Positions 8,617 through 38,336 of a stretch of DNA of 42,646 nt are shown piece by piece. The notes beneath the pieces were generated by a model. The model ran no database searches and had not been told where the DNA came from. It saw only the letters and a program-made list of their open reading frames with translations. Source of the DNA: Myxococcales bacterium (GTDB lineage Bacteria > Myxococcota_A > UBA9160 > SMWR01); NCBI GenBank assembly GCA_013215605.1, contig JABSQW010000009.1, positions 1 to 42,646 of the forward strand, in the 5' to 3' direction. The stretch's first letter is position 1, and each line of letters starts with the position of its first letter. The position numbers and the translations under genes were made by a program.

Positions 8617-11600
8617 TTGTCATCAGCCCTCGAACGCCATCAGGAGCGCTTCCGACGGGACCCCGGAAACAACCGGGCCTTCGAAGCCCTGGACGAACAC
8701 CTGTTCCTCGGGGGCGAGTGGGATTCGCTGATCGATCTGTACGAACGGAGGCTGACCTGCACCTCCGCTCGCGCGAACCGCCGGGAGAAGGCCGACCTCA
8801 TGTTCCGCCTGGGCCAGATCTGGGAGGAGCGGATCGGTCAGATCGACAAGGCGGTCGAGTGCTATCGCGAGACGCTGCGAGCCGATTCCCAGCACCTTCC
8901 AGCGCTGGGACAAATGCGCGGTATCTACGCCAGCCGCGCGCAGTGGGACGTCGTCCTGCAGATCGCAGAGATGGAAGTGGCGCTCCCGATGCCCGCCAAC
9001 GAGCGCGCCGAACTTCTCACGGGCATCGGAACCCTCTGGCTCGAACAGCTCGGTGATCCCGAGCAGTCACTCGCCCACTTCCAGCGCGCACTCGCGGAGT
9101 CCGCGGACCATGGGAAGGCGCTCGAGGGAGCGGCGGTCGGATTCGAGCGGCTGGGCCGCCACCCCCAGGCCGCCGAGGCGTGGCGGCGACGCGTCCCGCA
9201 GCTGCGCGGCACGGATCGCGCTGCCGCGCTCGTGAAGCTCGCGCGGTTGACGGGCGGTCCGCTCGGCCAGCCCGACGCCGCAGCCGAGCTCTACCGGAAG
9301 GCGCTCACCGACGACCCGATGCAGCCCGCCGCGGTGGAAGCGCTCACGAGCTACGCCACTGCGCGCGGCCAATGGGCCCTCCTCGCCGACCTCGGGGGGC
9401 GCCGCTTCGAGCTCGCGACCCGAGCCGGCGACGTCGCCCGGCAGGCGGCGATCGCCCTCGAGACCGGGCGCCTCCACCTCGAATCACTTCACGAACCGGC
9501 CTCCGCGGAGATCTGGCTGAACCGGGCGCGCGAGCTCGCCCCATCGGAGGCCGGCGTCTACCAGGCGCTGGGCGACCTGGCGAGAGAGAGAGAAGACGAC
9601 CCCGCGCTCCTCGAGTGCGTCGAACAGCTGCTGTCGCTGACGGACGATGCACCGCCGCTTTCTGCGCTGCTCGAAGCAGCGACGATGCGCTCCGAACGCG
9701 GTGAGCACGACCAGGCGCTACCGCATCTCGAGCGCGCGGTCGCGTCGGCGCCCGAAGACGCACTCGTCGTCGAAGCGCTGTCCGAAACGCTCTCGCACCT
9801 CGGCGACTACCCCGCGCTGGTCGACGCGCTCGAACGCCGCGCCGCGCTCGCAGTCGACGACCCCGAGACGCGCTCCGCGGTGCTCGTCGAGCTCGCAACG
9901 GTGCAGCGCGACCGTCTTCAGAACCCGGACGCGGCGCGCGAAGCCTTCGAACTCGCCTTCGACTCCGACCCGAAGGCCCAGGGCCTGGTAGCGATCCTCG
10001 AGCAGACCTACCGCAAGGTCGACGATGTCGAGTCACTCCGCTCGCTCTACGAGCGCGCGGGTTGCGACGGCCCCGTGGAGCGCCGTCCCCACCACCTGTG
10101 CCTGCTCGGCGAACACCAGGGCGAACGGCTGGGCGACACTTCGGAGGCGCGACGCAGCTTCGAGCGCGCGCTCGAAATCGATCCTGCGTGGGCGCCTGCC
10201 CACGAAGGACTGCAGAAGCGCGCGCAGGAGGACGGCGACCGCGAGGCTCTCGAGCACGCGTACGCGCTCGAGGTTCCCGTCGCCCGGGACACCGAACGAC
10301 TCGCGTTCCTCGTGGGTGAGCTCGTGTCGCTGTGCGAGGCGCGCCACCAGACTGCAGAAGCCCTCGACTGGGCGAGTCAGCTCGCGACTGCGACGCCCGA
10401 GAGCGCACCGGTGCTGCTCGAGTGCGCGCGTTTGCAGGAGAAGCTCGGTCGACGGGACGACCTCCTCGCGACCCTCGGAAACATCGAACCGCTCCTCGCC
10501 GGCAGCGCTCTCGCCGACCACCGGCGGCGCATTGCGGCACTCCACCGCGACGCCGGCCGCCACGACGCGTCGATCGCCACGTTCCAGAACGCCCTCGCAG
10601 CGAATCCCGAGGACCGCGAGGCTCTCGAATCCCTGCTCGCCCCGCTCGAAACCGCGGGGCGTCTCGACGAGCTCGCGCGGGCGCGGCGCCAGCTCGCGGA
10701 CCTGCTCCCGCCCGCCGAGCGCGCGACCTGCCTCAACGAGCTCGCGACCCTCCTCACGGATCGCCTCGGCGACACCAACGGCGGAATCGAGATCCTCACC
10801 GAATTGTGTCAGGGGCCCCGGGAATTCTGGCCGGCCGACGACATGGACGGGCGACTCGAAGCCGCACTCGAGCGCGCCGGCCGCTACGAAGAGCTCGCCG
10901 TGCGACTCGCTGAACGCATCGAGGCCTTCGGCGCCGGGCACCCCGAAGCCGGCAACCTCGAACTGCGCCGCGCGAACCTCCTCCTGGATCACCTGGACCG
11001 ATTCCGCGAGGCAGCGGATGCTTTCGAACGCGCGCGCCAGTGGGGCTCCGGGTCCGAGCGCGCCAGCGAGGGACTCGAGCGGGCGCTGCGTGCCGCCGGC
11101 GACGCCAACCAACTCGCTGCGTTCCTTCTGGACCGCGTGAACGACCTCGCAGACCCGCTGCTGAGCCAGCGAGCCGCGTTCGAACGAGCGGTGCTCCTCG
11201 AGGACGAACTCGGCGATGAACAGGGCGCGCGCGAAGCGATTGCGTCTCTCGCAGACACCGCCGAGGACCGCGGGCTGCGCCACGCCGCGTCCCGCCGACT
11301 GCAAGCGCTACTCGAGCGGACGAGTGCGTGGAGCGCGCTGCGCGAACACCTCGAAGCCGTCCTCACGCGGGCCGAGGCTGACGACCCCGCCGAGCTCCAC
11401 GAGCGCATCGCAGAGCTGTGCCGCGATCGGTTGAACGACCCCGTCGGCGCCGTCGCTCATTTCGAGGCCGCCACGGCCGTCGATCCGGGACGCGCCGATC
11501 TCTGGCGGGCGCTGGCCCATCTCTACGATCGAGCGGGTCGCAGCGAGGATCTCGTGCAAGCTCTCGAAGGCGAGCTCGAGACGGGTCCGTCTCCCGAGCG

Positions 11601-14600
11601 TGAACTCACGCTGCGCGGGCGAGCCGTCGAGGTGTGCGCGGGCGCGCTCTCCGACGTCGAACGGGCCCGGATGCACGCCGAGCGCGTCATCGAGCTCGAC
11701 GCCACGCACTCGGCCGCCACCGAGTTCTTGATCGACTTCTGGGAACGCGCCGGCCAGGCGAGTGCGGTCGTACGACTGCTCGAGAACCGGCTGCAGTCAC
11801 TGCGGGCGACATCGCCCGCGCCCGGCGGATCCGACGCGCTGCGCATGCAGCAGACCTCGCTTCAGCTGCGCATCGCCGCCGTGCGCTCGGCGCAGCTCGA
11901 CGACGTCGACGGTGCGATCGCCGCACTCGAACAGGCCCTCGACGACGTGGGACCGCGCACCGCGGTGGCCGAACCGCTCGCGGACCTCTACGAGGGAGCC
12001 GGCTACGACGAGGAACTCCTGGACGTCTGTCGACGCGCCGCGGACGCCAACGGGGACCCCAGCGAGCGCGCAAATTGGCTCCTGCGCCTCGGCGCCGCGC
12101 TCTGCGAGCGACGCCAGGACGGCGAAGCCCTCGACGTCTACCGCCGTGTACTCACCGACCGGCCCGACGACCGCGAGGCCCAGGCCGCCCTCCGAGACCT
12201 CTACCGGCGGGGCCGCGAGCCCGAGCCCCTGGCCCGCTTGCTCGAGGTGAAGCTCTGCCACGCGACCGGGCTCGAGGAGATCGAAGCGCGCCTCGAGCTC
12301 GCGGATCTTCTCGCCGACCCACTCGGCAAGCCCCAGGACGGACTGCGCGAGCTACGCCGCGTACTGCAGCTCGATCCGGCGCGTGACGACGTGCGCGAAC
12401 GCACCGTGCAGCTCGCGGAGCGCATGGGCGATCACGACACCGTACTCCAGCTGATCGACGAGGCACTTGCGCGCCCGCGTGGGTCGGACTCGCGCGCGGC
12501 GCTCCTCGCTCGGCGCGGGTCCGTCCTCGCCGACAGCGAGCGCCTCGCGGAAGCCTGCGACGCGTACCGGGAGGCACTGCGGCTCGACGCGATGCTCGGC
12601 GAGGCCCGCGGCGCCTTGCGCCGCTGCCTCGAGCGCCTTGGGCGCCACGCCGAAGTGCTCGACTGCCTCTACCAGGAGTCCTGCAACGCCCAGGGCGAAG
12701 CGCGTGTCGCGCTGCTCACCGAGGCCGCGGAGTTCGCGCGCGTCAACATCTCGCTCGATGCCGCTCTGCCGTGGCTGCAGCGGCTGCGGCGCGAGCGACC
12801 GACCGACGACGAGATCGCCTCGCGCATCACCGACGTCCACCGACGCGCGGGTCGAGCCGAGGCGCTCTTGCGCGCCCTGGAGGAAGAGGTTGCGCTGACC
12901 ACCGACACCGCGCGATGGCGTGAGCTCTCGATCGAGCGCGCCGGACTGCTCGAGTCGGCGTGGAAGGCTCCGGCACGCGCGGCGCGCGTGCTCGAAGAGG
13001 TGCGGGAGACCGCACCCGGTGCGGACGTGCTCGAGAACCTCGAGCGGCTCTACCGAGCAACGGATCGCAGCCGCGAGCGCGTCGACGTCATCGAAGAGCT
13101 CGTCGCTTGGCACGGCGGCTCATCTCCTGCGCTCGCCCCACTGCACCGCGAGGCAGCGGCGCTCTGTGAGGGCAGCCTGCGCGATCCCGAACGAGCTTCC
13201 CACCACTGGTATGCAGCGCTGTGCGCGACACCGCCCGGCAGCCAGGAGCACATCGCAACGCTGCGCTCCCTCGCCAACGCGCTTCGCGCATCTCAGCAGA
13301 TCCTCGCGTGGTCGCGCTGCGGTGAGGCCGAGCTCGCGGCGCTCGATCCGTCGCAGCCCGTCTTCGATGAGCGGCGTCAGCAGCTCCACGCGGAGCTCAC
13401 TGGCGCCTACGAGCAGGAGTTGGGCCGCCCCGATCACGCGCTCGGGCACCTGCGCGCCCTGGTCGACTCGCTGTCGCTCGCGGAGCCGTCGAAACAGCCG
13501 GGCGCGCGCGCGCCCGGCGCGGAGTTCGACGAGCCGGAGAAGTCGCTGTTGAGGTTGCTTCGCGCCCACAGCGCGTGGATCGAGCTCGAGCGGCGGCTCA
13601 CCCGCCGCCTCGAACGGATCACCCTCGACGATCGCCAGACCGACGACCCGGAGGCGTGGCTCGAGCTCGCAAGACTCCGCGACGACCCGATTCGCGATCG
13701 CCGCGGTGCCGCCACCGCCTACCGCCACGTGCTCGAGATCGAGCCCGATTGCCTGCCCGCGCTGCAGGGGCTGCGCGGAACCTGCGAGCGACTGTGCGAG
13801 TGGGCGGAGGTGGCGAGTACGCTCGAGCGCGAAATCGAGCACGCCCAGACGCACTCGCCCGGCCAACGCGCCGCCCTGCTCGGCCGCCTCGGCGACCTCT
13901 ACTGGCACCGCCTCGAATCGACCACGGGCGCGAGCCGCGCCTACGCGATGGCTCTCGAAGCGAACCCGAGCGACATCGACTCGCTGCGGTCGTTCGAGAA
14001 GCTCCTCGAATCGATGGAGGACTGGCGCGGCGCGATGGACCTCTACGAGAGCGAGGTCGAAACCCTCGGCGACGCGAATCCGGACCGCCGCTACGAGGTC
14101 TGGCTTCGCATTGGCGACATCGCGCGCGCGGGTGCGGACGATCCACACCGCGCGCTGCGCGCCTACCGGAGCGCCGCCGCCATCCAGTCGCTTCCGCCCG
14201 CACGCACGCTCGATCTCGCAACACTCCACCGCGAATGCGGAAGCCTCGAGGATCACGCAGAAGTCTTTGGCACCTGGTGCGACGATCCCGCGTCGGGCGC
14301 GCGCTGCGTCGACCACGTCTCCCTCGCAGACACCCAGAGCGAGCTCGGGCACGCCGACGCCGCACAGCGGCGCATCGACCGCGCGCTCGAGATCGACGAC
14401 GGCTTTTCCCCCGCCTGGGACGTGGCTGCGCGCCTGGCTCTTGCACGCGGCGAGTCCGAAAACGCCGCCGCGGCACTCGAACGCGCGGCGTCGCTTCTGC
14501 CGGATCCCGACGCGTCGATCCGACTGCAGCGGGCGGCGCGAATCGTCGAGAGCACCGACCGGAACCGGGCGTTGGCGCAGCTTCGAAAGGCCGTCGAGCG

Positions 14601-16599
14601 GGATGCGGGAAACGCGACCGCCTGCCTCGACCGAGCCCGCCTCGCCGAGAGCCGGGGGTTTCACGAGGAGGCGGAAAAGGCTGCGGAACAAGCGCTCGAG
14701 CTCCTCGCGAGCCCGCCCGCGTCAGAGGGCCCGGCGGAAGAGCTGCGCGAGCTGTCGCTGTGCGCGGCGCTGATCGGCGGACGGAGCGCGGTGCAGCGGG
14801 GTCGACTCGACGCGGCCTCGACGTGCTACGCCGAGGCGCTCGCGTCAGCGCCCGATCACCCGGAGGCCCTCGCGGGATACGCCGAGACGCTCGGTGCCCT
14901 CGGCGACTTCGCAACGGCGCGACGCCCGCTCGAACGCCTGCTCTCGCTCGAGTCCGAGGCGGCGCGGCGCCCGCTCCACCTGACCCTGCTCGCTCGCGGT
15001 CTCGAACTCGACGACGAGCCCGACGCAGCGATCGCCCGCCTCGAAGAAGCGCTGCACCTCGAACCGGGCCTCGATCTCGCTCACGAGCGGCTGGTCGCCA
15101 TCCACGAAGCGAACGCCGACATCGCGAACGCTGTCGCGGCGCTCGAGCACTGGGCGGAGATCGCAGCGAATCCCTCCCAATTCGGCGCGCGCATGCTGCG
15201 CGCTGCAGAGTGGGAGCTCGCGGACAGCACGCGTCACGAGTCGGCGGAACGCCACTTGCGCGCGGTGCTCGAAGCGCAGCCAGACAGCACATCCGCCTGG
15301 CGGCACCTTGCAAAGCTCTTGTGGGACGCCTCCCGGTCGACGGAGGCGCTCGAAGTCGCCAGCCGCGCGCTGTCGGCGATCGAGGAAACAGGGCGCAACG
15401 ACGCGGACCTCCAGGCGGCGCGCGCGCCGCTTGCGCTGATCATGGGCCGTGCGCTCGAGGAGCAGGACGCTCGCCGCGAGGCGGCGCGTGCCTTCGCGAT
15501 TGCGGCGGAAGCCGATCCCGACTGCATCGAGGCCGCGCTGTCGACCGCACGGCTGCTGCGCGCGCTCGGCGAATGGACCGCAGCCGCCGAGGCGCTCGAA
15601 ACCTTCGCCAGCCGACACCCCGAGGACGACGGCCCCGGCCTCGCCGAGGTCCTCGAACAACTTGGCCGGCTGCTGGCGGGTCCGCTCGAGGAGGTCGATC
15701 GGTCGGTCACGGTCTACCGCCGCGCCATCGCGCTGGACCCCTCTCGGCGCGAGGTGCGCACCAGCCTCGCCGAGCTTCTGAGTCACCGCCCCGGTGACTT
15801 CGAGGAAGCGCGGGGACACCACCGGGTGCTCCTCGAGGACGAGCCCGCAGACGCCAGGCTGCTTCGCGTGGTGCTCCGGTCCGCAGAGCAGCGCGGCGCC
15901 GACAGCGCCGCGGCCACCGGGCGGCGCATCCTCGAATCCCTCGGCGCCGCGGGCGCGAGCGACATGGACGCGCCGGCGGCAGAACCGACGGCCCCCCTCG
16001 CCGGCAACCGGAAGCTCTCCGATCCACTCTGGGAGAAGCTGCGGAGCGTCGCCAACGAGTCGGCGAAGGAGATCGCCGAGGCACTCGGTGCGTCCGGACA
16101 GCCGTCGCTACCCGGCGCGGGCGAAGCCCACAGCGACTTCCAGAGCGCGCGCCTCGCGGCCGAAGCCGAGCTGCTGGCGCCCGCCCTGCTGCCTCTCTCC
16201 GATGAAAAAGTGGGAGAGGTCCTGACGCTGATCGCCGCGCTGGTGATCGACCCCGAGACCGTGCGTGGCGACGGACAGCTCGTGAACTCGCTCAGCGCCG
16301 CGCTCGGTCGTCGCACCCGTCGCCGACTGCGCAACCTGCTCGCCGGGGAGTCGGTCGAGACGATCGAACAGATGGACTTCACCGCCTGGCGCCGCGAGTG
16401 CCGCGGCCTCGCCGCGGCGATGGCCCTCGACGCGACACAGGGCTCGCTTCGAGATGTGCTCGTCGCCCTCGTCTGCGAAGCGCAGGAGCGTGACCCGTCC
16501 GAGTTCGCGGAGGGTGACATCAGCGCGCTGGTAGGAGCGAGTCCCGAGGCTCGGGCACTGCTGCGGCGGGCGGTGCGCTCGTGGTTGTCGAGTCTTTGA
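8617..16599 (+). CDS. Giant tetratricopeptide-repeat protein (2,660 residues)
   Basis: Almost the whole protein is an alpha-helical TPR solenoid. Typical repeat pieces recur dozens of times, such as DKAVECYRETLRADSQHLPAL, EARRSFERALEIDPAWAPAH, and GASRAYAMALEANPSDIDSL, often inside longer units alternating with phrases like LARLRDD or LGDLYWHRL. No signal peptide or membrane segment is visible, so it is probably cytoplasmic. From about residue 2,450 the repeats stop and an approximately 200-residue helical C-terminal domain follows (with LTLIAALVIDPETVRGDG and LGRRTRRRLRNLLAGE), which I do not recognise. The TTG start is supported by GGAGGT seven bases upstream; no other start lies nearby. 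Such proteins are generally scaffolds for protein-protein interaction; the partner is unknown. Confidence 0.9.
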   Translation: MSSALERHQERFRRDPGNNRAFEALDEHLFLGGEWDSLIDLYERRLTCTSARANRREKADLMFRLGQIWEERIGQIDKAVECYRETLRADSQHLPALGQMRGIYASRAQWDVVLQIAEMEVALPMPANERAELLTGIGTLWLEQLGDPEQSLAHFQRALAESADHGKALEGAAVGFERLGRHPQAAEAWRRRVPQLRGTDRAAALVKLARLTGGPLGQPDAAAELYRKALTDDPMQPAAVEALTSYATARGQWALLADLGGRRFELATRAGDVARQAAIALETGRLHLESLHEPASAEIWLNRARELAPSEAGVYQALGDLAREREDDPALLECVEQLLSLTDDAPPLSALLEAATMRSERGEHDQALPHLERAVASAPEDALVVEALSETLSHLGDYPALVDALERRAALAVDDPETRSAVLVELATVQRDRLQNPDAAREAFELAFDSDPKAQGLVAILEQTYRKVDDVESLRSLYERAGCDGPVERRPHHLCLLGEHQGERLGDTSEARRSFERALEIDPAWAPAHEGLQKRAQEDGDREALEHAYALEVPVARDTERLAFLVGELVSLCEARHQTAEALDWASQLATATPESAPVLLECARLQEKLGRRDDLLATLGNIEPLLAGSALADHRRRIAALHRDAGRHDASIATFQNALAANPEDREALESLLAPLETAGRLDELARARRQLADLLPPAERATCLNELATLLTDRLGDTNGGIEILTELCQGPREFWPADDMDGRLEAALERAGRYEELAVRLAERIEAFGAGHPEAGNLELRRANLLLDHLDRFREAADAFERARQWGSGSERASEGLERALRAAGDANQLAAFLLDRVNDLADPLLSQRAAFERAVLLEDELGDEQGAREAIASLADTAEDRGLRHAASRRLQALLERTSAWSALREHLEAVLTRAEADDPAELHERIAELCRDRLNDPVGAVAHFEAATAVDPGRADLWRALAHLYDRAGRSEDLVQALEGELETGPSPERELTLRGRAVEVCAGALSDVERARMHAERVIELDATHSAATEFLIDFWERAGQASAVVRLLENRLQSLRATSPAPGGSDALRMQQTSLQLRIAAVRSAQLDDVDGAIAALEQALDDVGPRTAVAEPLADLYEGAGYDEELLDVCRRAADANGDPSERANWLLRLGAALCERRQDGEALDVYRRVLTDRPDDREAQAALRDLYRRGREPEPLARLLEVKLCHATGLEEIEARLELADLLADPLGKPQDGLRELRRVLQLDPARDDVRERTVQLAERMGDHDTVLQLIDEALARPRGSDSRAALLARRGSVLADSERLAEACDAYREALRLDAMLGEARGALRRCLERLGRHAEVLDCLYQESCNAQGEARVALLTEAAEFARVNISLDAALPWLQRLRRERPTDDEIASRITDVHRRAGRAEALLRALEEEVALTTDTARWRELSIERAGLLESAWKAPARAARVLEEVRETAPGADVLENLERLYRATDRSRERVDVIEELVAWHGGSSPALAPLHREAAALCEGSLRDPERASHHWYAALCATPPGSQEHIATLRSLANALRASQQILAWSRCGEAELAALDPSQPVFDERRQQLHAELTGAYEQELGRPDHALGHLRALVDSLSLAEPSKQPGARAPGAEFDEPEKSLLRLLRAHSAWIELERRLTRRLERITLDDRQTDDPEAWLELARLRDDPIRDRRGAATAYRHVLEIEPDCLPALQGLRGTCERLCEWAEVASTLEREIEHAQTHSPGQRAALLGRLGDLYWHRLESTTGASRAYAMALEANPSDIDSLRSFEKLLESMEDWRGAMDLYESEVETLGDANPDRRYEVWLRIGDIARAGADDPHRALRAYRSAAAIQSLPPARTLDLATLHRECGSLEDHAEVFGTWCDDPASGARCVDHVSLADTQSELGHADAAQRRIDRALEIDDGFSPAWDVAARLALARGESENAAAALERAASLLPDPDASIRLQRAARIVESTDRNRALAQLRKAVERDAGNATACLDRARLAESRGFHEEAEKAAEQALELLASPPASEGPAEELRELSLCAALIGGRSAVQRGRLDAASTCYAEALASAPDHPEALAGYAETLGALGDFATARRPLERLLSLESEAARRPLHLTLLARGLELDDEPDAAIARLEEALHLEPGLDLAHERLVAIHEANADIANAVAALEHWAEIAANPSQFGARMLRAAEWELADSTRHESAERHLRAVLEAQPDSTSAWRHLAKLLWDASRSTEALEVASRALSAIEETGRNDADLQAARAPLALIMGRALEEQDARREAARAFAIAAEADPDCIEAALSTARLLRALGEWTAAAEALETFASRHPEDDGPGLAEVLEQLGRLLAGPLEEVDRSVTVYRRAIALDPSRREVRTSLAELLSHRPGDFEEARGHHRVLLEDEPADARLLRVVLRSAEQRGADSAAATGRRILESLGAAGASDMDAPAAEPTAPLAGNRKLSDPLWEKLRSVANESAKEIAEALGASGQPSLPGAGEAHSDFQSARLAAEAELLAPALLPLSDEKVGEVLTLIAALVIDPETVRGDGQLVNSLSAALGRRTRRRLRNLLAGESVETIEQMDFTAWRRECRGLAAAMALDATQGSLRDVLVALVCEAQERDPSEFAEGDISALVGASPEARALLRRAVRSWLSSL

Positions 16600-25326: not shown

Positions 25327-27534
25327 ATGGCGGATATCGCCATCGGAATCGATCTCGGAACGAGCAACTCGTGTGTCGCGCGCGCCGAGGATGGAACGGT
25401 CGACGTGCTCGCCAACCCGTATGGCGAGAAGATCACGGCCAGCGTGGTCGCCTTTCGCGAGGACGGCTCGATCACGGTGGGAAATTCCGCCAAGGCAAAC
25501 ATCATCCACGACCCCGAGAACACGGTCTCCTCGGCGAAGCGCCTGATTGGCCGGTACTACTTCTCGGAAGAGGTGAAGAAGGCCAGGGCGATCTGCGCCT
25601 ACGACATCGCCGAGAGCGAGGGTCACGGCCTGCGCATCAACGTGCGCAACGAGCAGTTCTCACTTCCCGAGATCTCCGCCATGGTGCTGCGCGAGCTCAA
25701 GGCGATCGCCGAGGCGCGTCTCGGCCAATCGGTCTCGAAGGCGGTAATCACCGTTCCCGCCTACTTCAACGACAACCAGCGCCAGGCCACCAAGGACGCG
25801 GGCCGCATCGCCGGCCTCGAAGTGCTGAGGATCATCAACGAGCCCACCGCGGCCGCCCTCGCCTACGGCTTCGGCAAGGGTCTCAAGCAACGCGTTGCCG
25901 TGTACGACCTCGGCGGCGGTACGTTCGATATCTCGGTGCTCGAAATCGGCGAAGATATCTTCGAGGTGCTGTCGACGTGCGGCGACACGTTCCTCGGTGG
26001 CGAGGACTTCGACGACCGCCTGATCGACATGCTCGCGGACGAATTCCTGGCAAATACGGGCATCAACCTCCGCAACGACCGCTTCGCCCTCGAGAAGCTG
26101 AAGGTCGCCTCCGAGGACGCGAAGAAGGCGCTGTCCGTCGACAGCGCGGTCGACATCCGGATCCCCGACATCATCGAAGGGCCCGAAGGCATGCTATCCG
26201 TCGAGCACCAGCTGACGTCTGTCGAGTTCGGCTCGCTGGTCAACGACCTGCTGCAGCGCACCTTCAAGGTGTGCGACGAGGCGGTGCAGGAGGCCGGCGT
26301 GGTGGCGCGCGATCTCGACGGCGTCGTGCTCGTCGGCGGTCCAACGCGCCTCCCGATCATCCGGGACGCGGTGCGCGCGTACTTCCAGATGGAGCCGAAG
26401 ACCGACGTCGACCCCGACCTGGCCGTGTCGATGGGTGCGGCAATCCACGCGTCATCCCTCGTCAACCCGAAGAACGATACGTTCCTCCTCGACGTGACGC
26501 CGCTCTCCCTTCGCATCGGTGTCGCCGGCGGGATCGCGGAGTCGGTGATCGAGCGCAACACGCCGGTGCCCATCGAGCAGACCCGCACGTTCACGACGTT
26601 CAAGGACTACCAGGAGTCGGTGTCGATTCGCATCTACCAGGGCGAGTCGCGCGAGGCCGAGGAGAACGAGCCGCTCGGCCAGTTCGAGTTCTCGGGCTTC
26701 GCGAAGGCGCGGCGCGGCGAGGTCGAGATCGACGTCACGTTCGAGATCGACACCGACGGCATCGTCAACGTCACCGCGCGCGATCGCGACACCGGCCAGA
26801 AGGCGTCGATCCGCATCACGTTGTCGTCCGGTCTCTCGGAGAGCGAGATCGAGAGCATCATCGAACGCGCGAACACCGACCGCGTCGAGACGACGACTCT
26901 CGAAATCACGCCGCCGCCGGTGTCTCGGGACCCGCGGAGCGAGCTCGAAGAGGCCCTCTCGACTCCACCTCTCTCCGACAGCCAGCGCGCGCTCGAGCCT
27001 GTCTCGGAGTCCGACCCGGCCGCGTCGGCTGCCTCGTCGACCCCGGCCCACGCACCGGATGAGGCGACGCCGGCCGACGCCGTGACGCAGCCTTTCCTCG
27101 GGATGAGCCCGGACTCCGACGATCTGCTGCTCGACGAAGAGCCCGCGCCCCTGCTCGCCGAGCCGGCGCGCCTTTCGGGCGAACCCCAGCTGGCCGCGCC
27201 GGAGCCGATCGTCGCCGCAAGCCCCGAGCCCTTCTTCGAAGAGGCCCCGACCGACGAGATGGTCGCCTACACCAAGAACCCGAAAGCCATGGATCTCGAC
27301 CTCGAGCCCGACCCCGTCGGACTCGACATCGACACGGAGGTCGAGACCGAGGACAACCAGGTCGTCGAACTCACCGATGATCTCCACATCGCGAACACTC
27401 AAACCGCCAGCGAGCTGCACGATCCCGAACCGGAGGCGGAGCCGCAGGTGCTCGAGGAGAACCCTCACGACCTCTTCGAGCCCGCCGGCACCGACCTCAC
27501 GACGCTCGACGAAGCGGAAGACGAGAAGGGCTAG
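25327..27534 (+). CDS. DnaK-like Hsp70 with disordered acidic C-terminal tail
   Basis: The 735-residue protein has a complete Hsp70 ATPase domain (about 1-380), with IGIDLGTSNSCVA, AVITVPAYFNDNQRQATKDA, INEPTAAALAYGF, VYDLGGGTFDISVLE and VVLVGGPTRLPIIRDAV. The beta part of the substrate-binding domain follows to about 505 (LDVTPLSLRIGVAGG, NTPVPIEQTRTFTTFKDYQ). Only a short helix remains after it; from about residue 535 the usual helical lid is replaced by about 200 residues rich in Pro, Glu, Asp and Ala. This argues for a specialised paralogue, not the housekeeping DnaK. The ATG follows GGAGG. A J-domain gene starts three bases downstream, so the two likely work as a pair. Confidence 0.92.
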   Translation: MADIAIGIDLGTSNSCVARAEDGTVDVLANPYGEKITASVVAFREDGSITVGNSAKANIIHDPENTVSSAKRLIGRYYFSEEVKKARAICAYDIAESEGHGLRINVRNEQFSLPEISAMVLRELKAIAEARLGQSVSKAVITVPAYFNDNQRQATKDAGRIAGLEVLRIINEPTAAALAYGFGKGLKQRVAVYDLGGGTFDISVLEIGEDIFEVLSTCGDTFLGGEDFDDRLIDMLADEFLANTGINLRNDRFALEKLKVASEDAKKALSVDSAVDIRIPDIIEGPEGMLSVEHQLTSVEFGSLVNDLLQRTFKVCDEAVQEAGVVARDLDGVVLVGGPTRLPIIRDAVRAYFQMEPKTDVDPDLAVSMGAAIHASSLVNPKNDTFLLDVTPLSLRIGVAGGIAESVIERNTPVPIEQTRTFTTFKDYQESVSIRIYQGESREAEENEPLGQFEFSGFAKARRGEVEIDVTFEIDTDGIVNVTARDRDTGQKASIRITLSSGLSESEIESIIERANTDRVETTTLEITPPPVSRDPRSELEEALSTPPLSDSQRALEPVSESDPAASAASSTPAHAPDEATPADAVTQPFLGMSPDSDDLLLDEEPAPLLAEPARLSGEPQLAAPEPIVAASPEPFFEEAPTDEMVAYTKNPKAMDLDLEPDPVGLDIDTEVETEDNQVVELTDDLHIANTQTASELHDPEPEAEPQVLEENPHDLFEPAGTDLTTLDEAEDEKG

Positions 27535-27537
27535 ATC

Positions 27538-28050
27538 GTGGCCGCGCTCGCCCCGGCGGAGATCTTGGCGTTGGCGCGCATCTCGGAGGAGCTCGACTAC
27601 TACCAGCTCCTCCACCTGCAAGACGACGCCAACGCGCGCCAGATCAAGGACGCGTACTACGAGACGTCGCGCACGTTCCACCCGGATGCGTGCCGACACC
27701 TGCCGGACGACGTGCGGCGCGCCGTGGCCGTGATCGCCAAGCGAATCAGCGAGGCCTATTCCATCCTTCGAGATCCCCGTCGGCGCCCCGCCTACGACCG
27801 CCACCTCGAATCCGGTGGCGGCGCACGGATGCAGCTCGCGCAGGCCGAGGGGGCACAGCGCGCCGAGGTCGAAGGCAAGACGCCCCAGGGCCGCCAGTAC
27901 TTCACCCTCGCCAACCAGGATATCCGCCGCGGCGACTTCGCGGCGGCTGCCCGCAACCTGCAGACGGCCCTCACCTTCGAGCCGGGCAACGAAGGGTTCG
28001 AGAAGCTCCTCGTGGAAGTTCGAGAGAAGCTCGAGCACTCGTCCGCCTGA
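27538..28050 (+). CDS. J-domain (DnaJ-like) co-chaperone
   Basis: A 170-residue type III J-protein. The J domain spans about residues 20-88 (YYQLLHLQDDANARQIKDAY, then AKRISEAYSILRDPRRRPAY) and contains the essential HPD motif at 48-50. Glycine-rich and zinc-finger regions of classical DnaJ are absent. The C-terminal half contains a helical pair resembling one TPR unit (FTLANQDIRRGDFAAAARNL and QTALTFEPGNEGFEKLLVEV). The GTG start is three bases after the dnaK-like stop, which indicates co-transcription and a dedicated partner role. Confidence 0.88.
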   Translation: MAALAPAEILALARISEELDYYQLLHLQDDANARQIKDAYYETSRTFHPDACRHLPDDVRRAVAVIAKRISEAYSILRDPRRRPAYDRHLESGGGARMQLAQAEGAQRAEVEGKTPQGRQYFTLANQDIRRGDFAAAARNLQTALTFEPGNEGFEKLLVEVREKLEHSSA

Positions 28051-28150: not shown

Positions 28151-30217
28151 GTGCGCTGTTCAAGACTCCCGACGGTGTTCCTCACCGCGCTTCTCGTCTC
28201 CTGCAGCTCCGGCGATGCGGCGGAAGAAGCGCCCGATGGCAGCACATCGAGCCCGGTCCGCGCGGCCTCCAGCGCGGGAGGCGACGGCCACGACCACTCG
28301 AAACGCAAGGATCGGCCGCTGCCGGCGTTCTCGGGGTTCACGCTCGGTGGCGAGCAGCTCTCGGTGTCATCGCTGATCGGTCGACGTTTCCTCCTCTTCT
28401 TCTTCAACCCCAAGGTCAAGGCCGCAAAGAACGCCACGGCAGCGGTAAACGCCGTGGCCGCGCTCGGCGCCGAGTACAACTTCTCGGTGGTGGGTGTCGC
28501 GGTCGCCTCGTCGCAAGACGAATCCCGCCGTTTCGTCGCCGACTACGGCATCGCGTACCGCGTCATCAACGACTCGAATGCGAAGATCTCTCAGCGCCTC
28601 GGCTTGCGGTCGCCGGTCGCTCTCCTCGGTGTCGACTCGGAGGGTTACCTGAAGTTCGGCTTCGCGAACCTCCCGGACGACGCGGAAGCGATCGAGATGC
28701 AGCTGCGCACTGGGCTGCGCCTGCCGGCGAAGAGAGACGCGCCGCTCGCACTCGCGAGCCGCCGCCCCATGGCGCCCGACTTCCTCGCCGACATTCTCGA
28801 CGACGACGTGCCCTTCTCGCTCTCGGCGCATCGCGGCCGGGCCGTCGTCATGATGTTCTTCCTGCACACATGTCCCCACTGCCACGATGCCCTCGCGTTC
28901 ATGAAGAAGGCGCTCAGCGAGATTCCGGAGGACAAGCGCCCCGTCTTCGCGGGCATCGAGGTGTCTGGACGCTCGGGAGCAGTGCGCACCGAGCTCCGCG
29001 AGGCGGAGCTCGACTTCTTCCCCGTTCTGTTCGATCACGACGGGAAGATCCGCAAATTATTCGGCGTACACGGTGGTGTGCCGGACACCTTTCTCATCGA
29101 CCCCAAGGGTCGCATCGCGAGGCGCGTGGTTGGCTGGCGCAAGAACACCGATCCGCCGTTGATGCGCATGCGGATAGCGAAGCTATCCCGCGCGACGGTG
29201 CCGATGCTCCTGCGGCCCTCGGGCTATTCGGGAAACGAGGTCTGCGGTGTCTGCCACGAGTCGCAGCTCGTCACGTGGCAATTCACCAAGCACGCGGGGG
29301 CGTTCGGAACCCTCGTAAAGCACGGCGAGGATGGGAACGCTGAGTGCATCGGCTGCCACGTCGTCGGGTGGGAGCAGCCGGGCGGATTCACGCGGTCACA
29401 ACCCGACTCGGCGCTCGAGAACGTCGGGTGTGAGTCGTGCCACGGGCGCGGCGGGCCCCACCTCTCGGCCGGCTTCGTCACCGAGGCGAACTACGCCCCG
29501 GTCTGTGCGAGCTGTCACGACGCCGAGCACTCCCTACGATTCGATTACGCGACCTTCCACCCCAGGATCTCGCACAGCGCGAACTTCCACCTGACAATGC
29601 TCTCGGCCGATGCGCGGCGCGCGAAGCTCGCCGCTCTCGGGCGCCCGGGAGGCGATGTCCTTTCGAGCGCCGCCGAAACCGTGGGCTCGGAAGCGTGCGC
29701 GGCCTGCCACTCGAGCGAGTACGCGACCTGGTCCGCGAGCCCGCACGCAAGAGCTCACGCCACGCTCGAGGCGAAGGGCGCAACCGGCGACGCCGAGTGT
29801 CTGCGCTGTCACACCACCGCGATGGGCAAGCCCGGTGGTTTTCCCGAATCTGGGAATTTCGCGCAGCTCGCGAGCGGGAACCCCGATCTCGCGAGGGTCG
29901 GCTGCGAGTCGTGTCACGGTCCCGGCGGCGACCACATCGCTCCCGAAGCGACCAAGATCGGGACGATCCTCTCGCTGGGCGACAAGTGCGACTCGTGCGC
30001 GATCCAGCTGATCTGCGGCGGCTGTCACGACGAGGCCAACGACCCGGGCTTCGTATTCGAGGTACAGGACAAGATCGAGCGACAGCGCCACGGCACGATC
30101 GAGCCCGGCACGGGGAAGGCCCTCGGTACGTCGGCGAGCCTTCCCGTCGACACCTCCCCGGCCTCGGATCACGAACTCGCCGCCCGCGTGTTCTCGGCGC
30201 TCGACGAACGGAGCTGA
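28151..30217 (+). CDS. Lipoprotein with two thioredoxin-like domains and an octaheme cytochrome c region
   Basis: From the GTG at 28151 the protein is 688 residues. A lipoprotein signal (LLVSC, Cys18) places it in a membrane facing the periplasm. The first thioredoxin-like domain (about 55-195) lacks redox cysteines (NPKVKAAKNATAAV where CxxC is expected). The second (about 205-350) has a TlpA-like active site HTCPHCH at about 241-245. Then come eight CxxCH haem sites at about residues 365, 399, 427, 452, 516, 550, 585 and 622, in two similar sets of four, each with CESCHGxGG as third member. The haem part resembles cytochrome c554-like proteins. It probably moves electrons between haems and thiols or an unknown acceptor. 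The start is uncertain: a GTG at 28115 is also in frame. Confidence 0.87.
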   Translation: MRCSRLPTVFLTALLVSCSSGDAAEEAPDGSTSSPVRAASSAGGDGHDHSKRKDRPLPAFSGFTLGGEQLSVSSLIGRRFLLFFFNPKVKAAKNATAAVNAVAALGAEYNFSVVGVAVASSQDESRRFVADYGIAYRVINDSNAKISQRLGLRSPVALLGVDSEGYLKFGFANLPDDAEAIEMQLRTGLRLPAKRDAPLALASRRPMAPDFLADILDDDVPFSLSAHRGRAVVMMFFLHTCPHCHDALAFMKKALSEIPEDKRPVFAGIEVSGRSGAVRTELREAELDFFPVLFDHDGKIRKLFGVHGGVPDTFLIDPKGRIARRVVGWRKNTDPPLMRMRIAKLSRATVPMLLRPSGYSGNEVCGVCHESQLVTWQFTKHAGAFGTLVKHGEDGNAECIGCHVVGWEQPGGFTRSQPDSALENVGCESCHGRGGPHLSAGFVTEANYAPVCASCHDAEHSLRFDYATFHPRISHSANFHLTMLSADARRAKLAALGRPGGDVLSSAAETVGSEACAACHSSEYATWSASPHARAHATLEAKGATGDAECLRCHTTAMGKPGGFPESGNFAQLASGNPDLARVGCESCHGPGGDHIAPEATKIGTILSLGDKCDSCAIQLICGGCHDEANDPGFVFEVQDKIERQRHGTIEPGTGKALGTSASLPVDTSPASDHELAARVFSALDERS

Positions 30218-31229: not shown

Positions 31230-33149
31230 TCAGGGAGTGTGCCAGATGGGTGAGGTCCAGGCCCGCTCCTGCAGCGTCTTCGGGTAGTCGGTATTGCAGC
31301 AGTGCTCGTATCCCGGCTGGATCGTGTCGCGGTCCATGCAGTCGACGCCCGCTTCCACGCACAGATACTGGCTCCAGCGACAGGTCGGATTCTCGAGCAC
31401 GCGCGCGTAGTAGAAGGCCGGCTGCGACTCGTTGAACTCCGGGTCCTCCCAGACCTCGCAGAGACTGCGCGCGCCCGCGCCGAGCGCCTCGCACGTCGTC
31501 AGATCGACGCTCGCGCCGGTATCACCGCCTGCGACGTCGAACACTTTTTCGTGCGTCTTCCCGTTTGCGACCCAGCCCTTCACGATCTGAATGCGCTGCA
31601 ACATCGTTCCGGTCGCCGAGTCGCGGAGGGCGGATACGGCGAACGCGGGGCCCTTCGAGCCGATGCGCGACGGCAGATCGCCGCCCATCGGGACACCCGT
31701 CGCGTAGCCCCACTCGATGAAGTCGTCTTGCGCGCACAGGTTCTTCGGGAACTTCCAGCCGCCGAAGAAGCGCACGATGGGGCGCGTTCCGCTCGTGCCG
31801 TAGACCTCCTTGCGCTGCATCGCTGCAAAGAGGGAATCGCGCGTGTTCTCCTCGGCCCACACGACAGCGAGACCGCCCGGGTTGAACTCGATGTTGTCCG
31901 GCAGACCGACTGGCACACCCGTTGCCGACGACATCCCGGCACCTCCGTGCCCCACGTGTCGCTTCTCCGCCGTGAGTCCCGGTGTGCCGAGGTGCGTGTC
32001 CGTGCTGGCGATGATCCCGTACTTGAAGCGGTTCACTCCCAGCTTCCGCTGCTCGGCGATTCCGCGCTTGAGGGCGTCGCGCACGTAATCCGATGGCACG
32101 GGATCGAGCGCGCTTCGGTCGCCCAGGGGCGTCAGTCCGCTCACGCCCGCAAAGCTGTTGTACGGGAGCTTCTCGAACCCGCAGGCCTCGTCGGTCGTAC
32201 TGCCACCGAGGAGACACTCCGAGTCTCCCTTGTGCTGCATGATCTCGACCAGCGGCTCGAAGCGCGCTCTGCGTTGGGCGTCCCGCGGCGTCACCGGCAG
32301 ATTGCGGTCCTCGAGGGTTTCGATCTGCCCGGACGAGAACATCAACCCCGCGCTCAGGTTCGAGTTGTGGGGGATCGTCAGGACGTCGCAGCCGCTGCGG
32401 TTCAGGCACTCCTTCTCCAGGCTGTCCCAGAGGCGCGACGCCGATCGGGCGTCGATCGAGCTCGTTGCGGTGCCGGGGACCCTGTCGTTGCGAAAGACGA
32501 CGTTGCGATGGAGGTTGTTCCCCTGCCCCATCGAGCCGGTCCACTCATAGCCGATGAAGCTCGTGAACGAGCAGGTGGAGCTCTTGTCGTAGGCCTCGTT
32601 GGCCGCCGCCTGGACTTCCTGCCACGCCTCGCGCGCGGCCCCGATGCAGAGCTCGTCGTTCTCGCCGCAGAACCCCCAGCGGTCCTTCGCGAGGGACCCG
32701 CGCAGTCCCATCAGGAGCAACCCCATGCCGGGGATGGTGTTGTACGCCCAGCAGATGTCGGAGTCGCTGCCCGGCCCGTCGCCGCCGCAGATGCGCACCT
32801 CGCCGAAGAACTCCGCGTGGTCGGTGACGACCGTCCAGTCGAGCGGGCGGTCGAGCTTCACCGTGCGGAGCGGCTTTCCGTTCGCGTCGTAGGGCTGGAT
32901 GCCGAGGGCCTCTCCCTTCGCGAAGCGCCAGGCATCGCGCGGCGTGTTTCGCGTGCTCTGGGAGGCCGCGTCGAAGGAGTAGCTGGTGTGGACGTGGGTG
33001 TCCCCGAAGAACGGCTGGCGGAGCGAGGCAAAGTTCTGGCACGCCTCGCGTTTCTCGGTCTGGTCATAAGGCCGTTTCTCGGCCGGCGCCTCTGCGGCCA
33101 GTGACAGAACCAACGCGATCGACACCCACCCGTACCGGCGGCTTCCCAT
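31230..33149 (-). CDS. DUF3604 family protein (secreted, PHP-like metal site)
   Basis: The 639-residue protein has an N-terminal signal sequence (about 1-23) and family hallmarks: FGDTHVHTSYSFDA with an HxH pair at about 52-54, VVTDHAEFFGE at about 108-117, IGYEWTG, LTIPHNSNLS, STDTHLGTPG and VVWAEENTRDSLFAAMQRKE. These histidines and aspartates resemble a PHP-type metal centre, so a periplasmic hydrolase is plausible. The real reaction and substrate are not known to me. Several cysteines in the C-terminal part may form disulfides. The ATG at 33149 has GGGGAGG upstream; the open frame above it is noncoding. It is divergent from the SDR gene. Confidence 0.9.
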   Translation of the reverse strand: MGSRRYGWVSIALVLSLAAEAPAEKRPYDQTEKREACQNFASLRQPFFGDTHVHTSYSFDAASQSTRNTPRDAWRFAKGEALGIQPYDANGKPLRTVKLDRPLDWTVVTDHAEFFGEVRICGGDGPGSDSDICWAYNTIPGMGLLLMGLRGSLAKDRWGFCGENDELCIGAAREAWQEVQAAANEAYDKSSTCSFTSFIGYEWTGSMGQGNNLHRNVVFRNDRVPGTATSSIDARSASRLWDSLEKECLNRSGCDVLTIPHNSNLSAGLMFSSGQIETLEDRNLPVTPRDAQRRARFEPLVEIMQHKGDSECLLGGSTTDEACGFEKLPYNSFAGVSGLTPLGDRSALDPVPSDYVRDALKRGIAEQRKLGVNRFKYGIIASTDTHLGTPGLTAEKRHVGHGGAGMSSATGVPVGLPDNIEFNPGGLAVVWAEENTRDSLFAAMQRKEVYGTSGTRPIVRFFGGWKFPKNLCAQDDFIEWGYATGVPMGGDLPSRIGSKGPAFAVSALRDSATGTMLQRIQIVKGWVANGKTHEKVFDVAGGDTGASVDLTTCEALGAGARSLCEVWEDPEFNESQPAFYYARVLENPTCRWSQYLCVEAGVDCMDRDTIQPGYEHCCNTDYPKTLQERAWTSPIWHTP

Positions 33150-33329
33150 GAATCCTCCCCTGGATTGCGGACGCGCCGAGTGCCGCCGTTCGCGCAACGG
33201 ATCGGAGCATAGTGGAGCGATCGCCGTCGGCGCCCAAGTCGCAGCGGTCTCGCGAAACGCCCCGGTTCTGCGAACGCCGGGGGTACCATCAACGAGCAGA
33301 CCCCGCCCCGCACCCCGAGAGAGACCTCC

Positions 33330-34178
33330 ATGCCCGACCTGTTCAGCGGACGCAACGTCATCGTCACCGGCGCGAGCCGGGGAATCGGCGCCGGAATCTC
33401 CCAGCGCTTCGCCGCGGAGGGCGCCAACGTCGCCATCACGGCGCGCACCGTCGACGCCCACCCGACGCTTCCGGGCAGCCTCAACGAGACGCTCGAAACC
33501 ATGGTCGGCGTCGGCAGCGGAAAGCACGTCGCGATCTCGGCGGACCTGTCAGATGCCGAGGACCGCGCGCGCATCGTCCCCGAGGCGACAGCCGCTCTCG
33601 GACCGATCGACATCCTCGTCAACAACGCCGCCGCGGCGATCTACCAGCCCCTCAGCGACTACCCGCTCAAGCGGCGCCGCCTGATGATGGAGGTCAATCT
33701 CCAGGCGCCGATCGATCTCGCGCAGCAGGTGGCCGCGTCGATGCGCAAGCGCGGCGAGGGGTGGATCGTCAACGTGTCGAGCGCGAGTGCGGTTCACGCG
33801 CCAGGGCCCCCTTTCGCCGAAGATCCGTTCGTGGCGACGATCGGCTACTACGGCGCCACGAAGGCGGCTCTCAACCGCGCGACGAACACGCTGGGCCACT
33901 CCTTCTACGGTACAGGCATCCGCGTCAACGCCGTCGAGCCCCGCGCCAGTGTGCTGTCGCCGGGCGCCGAGGTCCTCGCCGGTGCACGGCTCACCGAGGA
34001 TCAGATCGAGTCACTCGAGGCGATGGTCGAGGCCACGATCGCACTCTGCGAGTGCGGCCTCGAACGCACGGGGGGCTGCTACTCGAGCCTCGACCTGCTC
34101 GACGAGCTGAGCCGAACCGTGATGACCCTCGACGGAAAGAGCGAGTACCCGGGCGGCTACCGAACCACTCGTCAGTAG
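33330..34178 (+). CDS. SDR family oxidoreductase
   Basis: A 282-residue classical short-chain dehydrogenase/reductase. The cofactor motif [10 protein letters not shown] is at about 14-23, NNAA at about 97-100, catalytic serine in VNVSSASA, and the active-site YGATK. The ARTVD after the second strand suggests NADP preference, but this is weak. The C-terminal part ([20 protein letters not shown]) differs from the common family ending. Substrate is unknown. The ATG follows a GAGAG-type site. The 3' end overlaps the convergent purE gene by seven bases. Confidence 0.9.
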
Positions 34179-36698: not shown

Positions 36699-36830
36699 GT
36701 TGCGGGTAGTGGGGCGTCAACCCCTCCAGGGCGATTTCTTTGATGATTTTCGGGGATTTGTGGCGATCCACCAGTGGGAGGGGGATTATCGGAGCCGGCC
36801 CGCAATCGAGCGATCCGACCTTGGAGATCC

Positions 36831-38336
36831 ATGCCGCGATTGGTGAAATGCATTGGCATCGCGGTCTCGATGCTCGCGGTGTTGGGGGCGGGGGCGTGCT
36901 TCCTGCTACCCGAGCGCTTCGCGGTCAACGTTCCGCTGGGCTCGATGCTGACCGGGACGGGGCCAGGTGCCCCCACCAATGACCAATTTGCCACCCGGAT
37001 CCGCGTTCCGGACGGGTTCTCGGTCGGCCTGTACGCAACGGACATCGAGAACGCCCGATTCCTGCGCTTCACCTCCAGCGGCGACCTCCTCGTGAGCCAG
37101 CCGCGGCGCGGTGAGATCCTCCTCCTCGAACGCGATCGCAACGGCGACGGCCTGCCCGATGGGCGTCGCACCCTGCTCTCGGGACTCGATCGCTCCCTGG
37201 GGCTCGACCTGGATGACGGCTGGCTCTACATCGGCGAGGGCAGCGCCGTAGCGCGCGTGCGCTTCGACGCGGAGGCTGGCACCACAGTGGGCGACATCGA
37301 GCGAATCGTGACGGGAATCCCCGAAGGCGGCAACCACTGGACCCGGACGCTGCGCATCGGACCGGATGGCCACATCTACCTGTCGGTCGGCTCGAGTTGC
37401 AACGTCTGCGAAGAGTCCGACCCGCGCCGTGCGGCGATGCTCCGCTACCGGATCGACGGCTCCGGCGAGGAGATCTACGCCGCTGGGATGCGCAACTCGG
37501 TGGGCTTCGACTGGCGACCGGGCACGAACGAACTCTATGCCACCGACAACGGCCGCGACCTGCTGGGCGACGATTTCCCCCCGTGCGAGCTCAACCGCAT
37601 CGAACGGGGGGGCTTCTACGGCTGGCCCTACGCGAACGGCGACAACGCCCCCGATCCGGATTTCGGAGCGGGGAACGAAGCCAAGGTCCGCAGCGCCCGG
37701 GCGCCCGACCACGGCTTCCGCGCCCACAACGCACCGCTCGGCATGACGTTCGTCCGGGGCGACGCGGCGCCCGGCTACCGAGGTGCGGCGCTGGTCGCCC
37801 TCCACGGCTCGTGGAATCGCTCCGCGAAGGACGGCTACAAGGTGGTTTCGCTCCACTGGCCCAGCAACGGCCGCGCGGGTCCTCTCGAGGAGCGCGACTT
37901 CTTGTGGGGGCTCGAAGTCGACGACGACGTGATCGGCCGGCCCGTCGATGTGATCGAGGGTCCCGACGGTGCCTTCTACATCAGCGACGACTACGCGAAC
38001 TCCGTGTACCGCGTGGCGTACGGAAGCGCTGCCCGAGCCACGGCCGCCCCCGGCGCCGCCACGACGACCCGTGATCCCCTCGCCGCCGTTCAAGAGGCGG
38101 CCCGTCCGCACCTCGCGGCAACCGGCTCCGCCCTCTACGCCCGCCACGCCTGCGCGACCTGTCACGACCCCGCCACCGCCCGACCGGGCGTCGTGCCCGT
38201 CGTGCTCGAAGACCTCGCGACCCGCTACGACGTGCCGCGCATGATGTCGTTCCTCGCGGCACCGACGCCCCCGATGCCGGCCTTCGACCTGACCGAAGAC
38301 GATCGCCGCGCCCTGGCCGTGCATCTGCTTCGATAG
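36831..38336 (+). CDS. Sugar dehydrogenase beta-propeller (PQQ-type) fused to cytochrome c
   Basis: The 501-residue protein begins with a membrane anchor or signal (about 8-27). A propeller of the glucose/sorbosone dehydrogenase type follows: RVPDGFSVGLYATDIEN, LERDRNGDGLPDGRR, IPEGGNHWTRTLRIGPDGHI, YLSVGSSCN, GMRNSVGFDWRPGTNELYAT, DNGRDLLGDDFPPCELN, RGGFYGWPY and ALHGSWNRSAKDGYKV. The cytochrome c domain carries haem site CATCH at 441-445 and a likely axial methionine near 482 (PPMPAF). The fusion suggests oxidation of a sugar or aldehyde with direct transfer to the respiratory chain. The ATG follows GGAG. Cofactor PQQ is inferred from family; no PQQ synthesis gene is in the window. Confidence 0.9.
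   Translation: MPRLVKCIGIAVSMLAVLGAGACFLLPERFAVNVPLGSMLTGTGPGAPTNDQFATRIRVPDGFSVGLYATDIENARFLRFTSSGDLLVSQPRRGEILLLERDRNGDGLPDGRRTLLSGLDRSLGLDLDDGWLYIGEGSAVARVRFDAEAGTTVGDIERIVTGIPEGGNHWTRTLRIGPDGHIYLSVGSSCNVCEESDPRRAAMLRYRIDGSGEEIYAAGMRNSVGFDWRPGTNELYATDNGRDLLGDDFPPCELNRIERGGFYGWPYANGDNAPDPDFGAGNEAKVRSARAPDHGFRAHNAPLGMTFVRGDAAPGYRGAALVALHGSWNRSAKDGYKVVSLHWPSNGRAGPLEERDFLWGLEVDDDVIGRPVDVIEGPDGAFYISDDYANSVYRVAYGSAARATAAPGAATTTRDPLAAVQEAARPHLAATGSALYARHACATCHDPATARPGVVPVVLEDLATRYDVPRMMSFLAAPTPPMPAFDLTEDDRRALAVHLLR

Follow-up and report, generated by a model that had tools for sequence, protein, structure and literature searches.

The gene at positions 28151–30217 of the window, by which we denote the whole analysed stretch of 42,646 nucleotides from contig JABSQW010000009.1, raises the question whether thioredoxin-like domains and two tetrahaem modules are truly joined in one exported protein and, if so, what such a protein would do. 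The forward strand carries here one unbroken frame with a GTG start and 688 codons plus stop, with the following features:

28151..30217, forward strand: whole gene, encoding a 688-residue lipoprotein in the order degenerate thioredoxin, CPHC thioredoxin, tetrahaem A, tetrahaem B (open reading frame; homologues in relatives)
28151..28204, forward strand: lipoprotein signal peptide up to the lipobox cysteine C18 (lipobox motif LLVS-C18)
28298..28726, forward strand: domain 1, cysteine-free and thioredoxin-like, residues about 50–192 (profile-profile match to domain 2)
28736..29200, forward strand: domain 2, thiol-disulfide domain of ResA/TlpA fold, residues 196–350 (Pfam, NCBIfam ResA below cut-off, AF2 model, Foldseek)
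28871..28885, forward strand: active site C241-P-H-C244 followed by H245, CPHCH (conservation in 62 aligned homologues)
29078..29083, forward strand: Val310–cis-Pro311 loop of domain 2 (Pro in 62/62 homologues)
29225..29584, forward strand: tetrahaem module A, residues about 359–478, CxxCH at 365, 399, 427 and 452 (Cytochrome_C554; four motifs in 62/62)
29681..30100, forward strand: tetrahaem module B, residues about 511–650, CxxCH at 516, 550, 585 and 622 (homologous to module A; four motifs in 62/62)
29987..29998, forward strand: extra non-haem CxxC, C613-D-S-C616, directly before the last haem motif at C622 (near-invariant in 62 homologues)

The single frame, the Pfam and profile matches and the homologues confirm the original prediction of a degenerate thioredoxin, a CPHC thioredoxin and a duplicated tetrahaem module in one lipoprotein. 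A linker lies between the signal peptide and domain 1, and the lipobox cysteine is aligned in 29 of 31 homologues from the same order. No NCBIfam model spans the whole 688-residue protein, a literature search of open-access papers yielded no description of this domain order or fusion, and a plasmid search gave no match. The protein represents an un-named but real, conserved fusion family.

To delineate its spread, we surveyed 284 genomes, all from the phylum Myxococcota, with a homologue threshold of E ≤ 1e-40. A homologue was present in 81 of the 284 genomes, comprising 51/53 from the order, 6/7 from the class beyond that order and 24 from other families, and strong matches (best E ≤ 1e-112) occurred in 57 of the 61 genomes nearest to that of the window. 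Among the strong matches listed there was no internal stop, and some matches were cut by contig ends. We aligned 62 homologues (31 from the order, 7 from the class, 24 others), and in every one a thioredoxin domain with CxxC precedes eight CxxCH motifs in one frame, with both catalytic cysteines, the cis-proline and all eight haem motifs invariant (62/62). Separate genes read through by sequencing error, the alternative raised alongside the original prediction, are thereby ruled out. Homologues outside the class, which a maximum-likelihood tree splits from the class with full support, adopt a short form without domain 1 (11 of 24 inspected); with the whole protein as query, no match outside the class in the 284-genome survey extended before residue 183. 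Domain 1 is, as far as the sampled sequences go, limited to the class, and the fusion is, by the same sequence record, old within the lineage.

The domain search proposed with the original prediction returned AhpC-TSA, a ResA-like match below cut-off and Cytochrome_C554 twice. The AhpC-TSA match covers residues 207–323 (E 5.2e-22), and ResA is the best NCBIfam match of domain 2. An AF2 model of domain 2, calculated from a four-row alignment of the window and L039 sequences, reached a pLDDT of 81; L039, the one locus found in a contig scan, comes from a Myxococcota MAG. Foldseek placed ResA (1su9) first for this model with TM-scores of 0.79/0.89 and also listed CcmG and TlpA, so that domain 2 adopts a ResA-like thioredoxin fold. 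The full-length AF2 model, based on two sequences, was unusable (pLDDT 33.6). Profile-profile comparison matched domain 1 to domain 2 with a probability of 99.5% (E 4.9e-23), while a control pairing of domain 1 with one of the haem halves gave no match. In the alignment of the two domains the positions of C241 and C244 correspond to a PKVKAAK stretch in domain 1, which also showed a weak match to the PRK09437 peroxidase. As predicted, domain 1 lacks redox cysteines: it has no cysteine at all in this protein and no conserved cysteine column across the aligned homologues.

For the haem region, Pfam matched Cytochrome_C554 (PF13435) in two stretches (E 4.9e-26; 91.9 bits, above the gathering cut-off of 20.8). 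Modules A and B (residues 355–478 and 506–652) aligned with a profile-profile probability of 99.9% and an E-value of 7.6e-35, and by BLAST they share 44% identity over 88 residues. The internal tetrahaem duplication was thus borne out, as was the arrangement of the eight CxxCH motifs in two sets of four with a common CESCHGxGG third site, which reads CESCHGRGG in module A and CESCHGPGG in module B. In NCBIfam the haem modules came closest to the C-terminal region of NF041198, a UshA-like (seleno)protein, at 193.1 bits and below the cut-off of 275, and no Pfam match to the UshA metallophosphatase part was found in the 688-residue protein. The extra cysteine pair, which the earlier note had not listed, is conserved at 61/62 (C613) and 62/62 (C616). 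Conserved non-motif histidines of the haem region are located at 381, 437, 460, 475, 532, 595 and 647 (58–62 of 62), with an eighth at 391 in the class (38/38) and at 380 outside it (23/24). Seven common and one clade-specific histidine amount to eight per clade, equal to the number of haems, and as putative ligands would suffice for eight bis-His haems. Covalent haem would be expected at the eight invariant CxxCH motifs.

The original prediction had further asked whether CPHCH, which fits the haem-binding pattern, could become haem-loaded. As a general property this is unsupported. H245 is found in all 31 order sequences (31/31) and in 6/7 from elsewhere in the class (37/38 together), but in none of the 24 homologues outside the class, where the residue after the second cysteine is Q, R, L, S, E or T. 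H245 is therefore clade-specific and a ninth haem is not a family property, so that the nine-haem protein was dropped as default reading. One class sequence, L051, has CSYCR in place of CPHCH and keeps all eight haem motifs and everything else; this sequence (L051:3953-5953) is a second copy in its genome (G192) and groups with order sequences in the tree. Moreover, since the non-motif histidines equal the haems in number, no obvious distal ligand is left over, and the thioredoxin fold and its invariant cis-proline are kept. In DsbC a histidine likewise comes after the active-site CGYC, and DsbC is not known as a cytochrome. DsbC is a thioredoxin-fold protein with this CGYC active site (PMC4460558). 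CPHCH is thus probably not a haem site and a ninth haem within the class is unlikely; that the motif carries a ninth covalent haem or another metal there has, despite H245 in nearly all class members, very little chance of being right.

We compared the active-site type of the fused family with 20 unfused ResA/TlpA-like paralogues from genomes of the same order. The dipeptide ends in histidine (CxHC; H243) in 61 of 62 fused homologues, with CSYC in the remaining one, whereas CxPC was found in 20/20 of the unfused controls; glutamate at position +3 from the second cysteine occurs in 1/62 fused proteins as against 16/20 controls. The fused family therefore shows neither the proline before the second cysteine nor the Glu +3 of ResA, CcmG and TlpA, both of which are present in the characterised CcmGs dedicated to cytochrome maturation (PMC5909903). 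The residue preceding the cis-proline is valine in 37/38 class sequences and threonine in 24/24 short forms, and the CPHC with Val-cisPro of the window's protein corresponds to the DsbA type, being the commonest pairing among bacterial DsbAs (PMC4460558). Neither the DsbA family PF01323 nor Thioredoxin_4 was among the Pfam matches at E ≤ 1. The domain 2 site is a CxxC and not a Sco-type CxxxC with distal histidine, and by reading we found no peroxidatic PxxxTxxC motif of peroxiredoxins, the sequence preceding C241 being VVMMFFLHT. Together, CxHC without Glu +3, unlike the unfused paralogues, suggests that the ResA fold carries a site of the oxidase type here, and the oxidase direction is favoured, a direction that we infer from the motif type.

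The thiol systems of related genomes were assessed at Pfam sensitivity. DsbB was detected in 17/53 and VKOR in 5/53 genomes of the order, counts to be read with the partly incomplete MAGs in mind, and 22 of 35 high-quality genomes of the order had neither. A VKOR match was present in 186/224 genomes from the rest of the phylum, including all 24 genomes with a short form. DsbA-like Thioredoxin_4 proteins were found in 41/41 relatives and DsbD/CcdA, which supplies electrons to extracytoplasmic thioredoxins, in 39/41; ResB was not detected in the window's own genome. The scarcity of DsbB and VKOR alongside the fusion is a lineage-level association, uncorrected for shared ancestry, as is its Fisher p-value. 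Owing to VKOR in the short-form genomes (24/24), the fusion is not simply a substitute for a quinone-linked oxidase, and we rejected the simple VKOR replacement.

Analysis of the gene neighbourhood showed a uracil-DNA glycosylase gene downstream in 16/16 and an aroE-bearing frame in 15/16 of the class loci compared, as well as a dnaK and J-domain pair upstream in 9/16. In the window this pair, an hsp70 (dnaK-type) and a J-domain gene at 25327–28050, lies directly upstream of the exported cytochrome gene, and it is kept in many class genomes. Short-form neighbours differ from those of the class; large proteins with hydrophobic stretches (cluster c1) precede the short-form genes at L060, L064 and L077, and the two from L060 had no Pfam match. 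As there is no obvious redox partner among the neighbours in the loci sampled, class or short-form, we inferred no function from context. Elsewhere in the window, positions 36774–38336 encode a protein resembling glucose/sorbosone dehydrogenases, the C-terminal region of which weakly matches cytochrome c (CBB3-type); several class genomes have a homologue of it close to the fusion gene. Downstream on the reverse strand, 31230–33527 encodes a DUF3604 protein, found near the fusion gene in one other compared locus only, and 8617–16599 is a 2660-residue open frame with tetratricopeptide repeats.

Based on these data, the electron exchange between thiols and haems put forward in the original prediction is plausible and is strengthened by the invariant cis-proline, the near-invariant CxHC and the C613/C616 pair; thiol-haem coupling would be the likeliest function. 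Our main reading, at a probability of roughly 45%, is an exported, lipid-anchored thiol-haem electron-transfer protein, most likely a thiol oxidase feeding the octahaem module. The ResA-fold domain with its DsbA/PDI-type CxHC would take two electrons from substrate dithiols or a DsbA-like protein, and these would pass from CPHC to the octahaem module, plausibly via the dithiol C613/C616 next to the last haem, whereupon the haems would hand single electrons on to another redox partner. Domain 1, in the class only, would be a catalytically dead duplicate for binding or scaffolding. The coupling of thiols to haems is suggested by the invariance of the catalytic cysteines, the cis-proline and the eight CxxCH motifs and the near-invariance of C613/C616, and the oxidase direction by the differences from the unfused paralogues in CxHC and Glu +3, by the CPHC/Val-cisPro pairing in most of the class and by an order short of DsbB and VKOR in which Thioredoxin_4 proteins and the fusion are widespread (41/41 and 51/53, respectively). 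Counting against this reading are VKOR in all short-form genomes, DsbD/CcdA in most relatives, gene neighbours among which no redox partner emerged, and the fold itself, which is that of ResA, a reductase.

This fold would also suit a flow of electrons in the reverse direction, with haems fed by the respiratory chain reducing the CPHC disulfide and, through it, disulfides or oxidised sulfur outside the cytoplasm. In its favour, Shewanella mutants of the multihaem Mtr system have a severe defect in the reduction of an organic disulfide outside the cell (PMC10986466), but the oxidase-type CxHC without Glu +3 renders this direction unlikely on balance. Domain 2 has the fold of ResA and ResA as its best NCBIfam match, and it is fused to a substrate with 16 haem-motif cysteines; this is also what would be expected of an in-cis maturation factor, a ResA/CcmG-like domain that holds the CxxCH cysteines of its own protein in the reduced state for haem attachment and takes no part in the mature electron path. 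Such a factor is quite improbable, as the CxPC and Glu +3 of dedicated CcmG/ResA proteins (PMC5909903) are missing and related genomes have unfused ResA/TlpA-like paralogues. We give similarly low odds to thioredoxin domains that are mainly docking or structural elements or a peroxidase, with C613/C616 as a structural disulfide: the cysteines already lost from domain 1 and the AhpC-TSA label of domain 2 would agree with it, but the catalytic pair and cis-proline are kept in 62/62 homologues and the peroxiredoxin motif is missing.

If the thiol-oxidase reading holds, a single protein links the two-electron chemistry of thiols and disulfides to a multihaem wire, and electrons from protein thiols may go straight into haems in these bacteria. 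A haem-wired disulfide-forming enzyme, with electrons running from thiols through CPHC and C613/C616 to the octahaem module and bypassing the DsbB/VKOR-quinone route, could even be the main reoxidation route in a Myxococcota order where most genomes lack both, a speculative extension that we consider doubtful. The fusion protein also makes it testable how bacteria that have no recognisable DsbB or VKOR form their envelope disulfides.

Among known systems, Sco-cytochrome c fusions likewise join a thioredoxin-fold thiol domain to haem; theirs is a single haem with a CxxxC copper-binding Sco site, in contrast to the eight haem motifs and the CxxC found here. The UshA-like (seleno)protein NF041198, for which PMC13188914 lists a CxU redox motif, is the nearest NCBIfam match of the haem modules, whereas the fusion protein scores below its cut-off of 275 and has neither the UshA part nor selenocysteine. 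Each haem half resembles the tetrahaem module of the cytochrome c554 family (PF13435), from which the fusion protein differs by its tandem modules, the thioredoxin domains ahead of them and the extra CxxC before the last haem. With DsbA it shares CPHC with Val-cisPro, yet it lacks a DsbA-family Pfam match and has a ResA fold with a fused octahaem module. Finally, domain 2 has the fold of ResA, CcmG and TlpA (TM 0.79/0.89 to 1su9) and is exported as they are, but the fusion protein differs from them in having CxHC instead of CxPC, no Glu +3, valine or threonine before the cis-proline, and haems attached.
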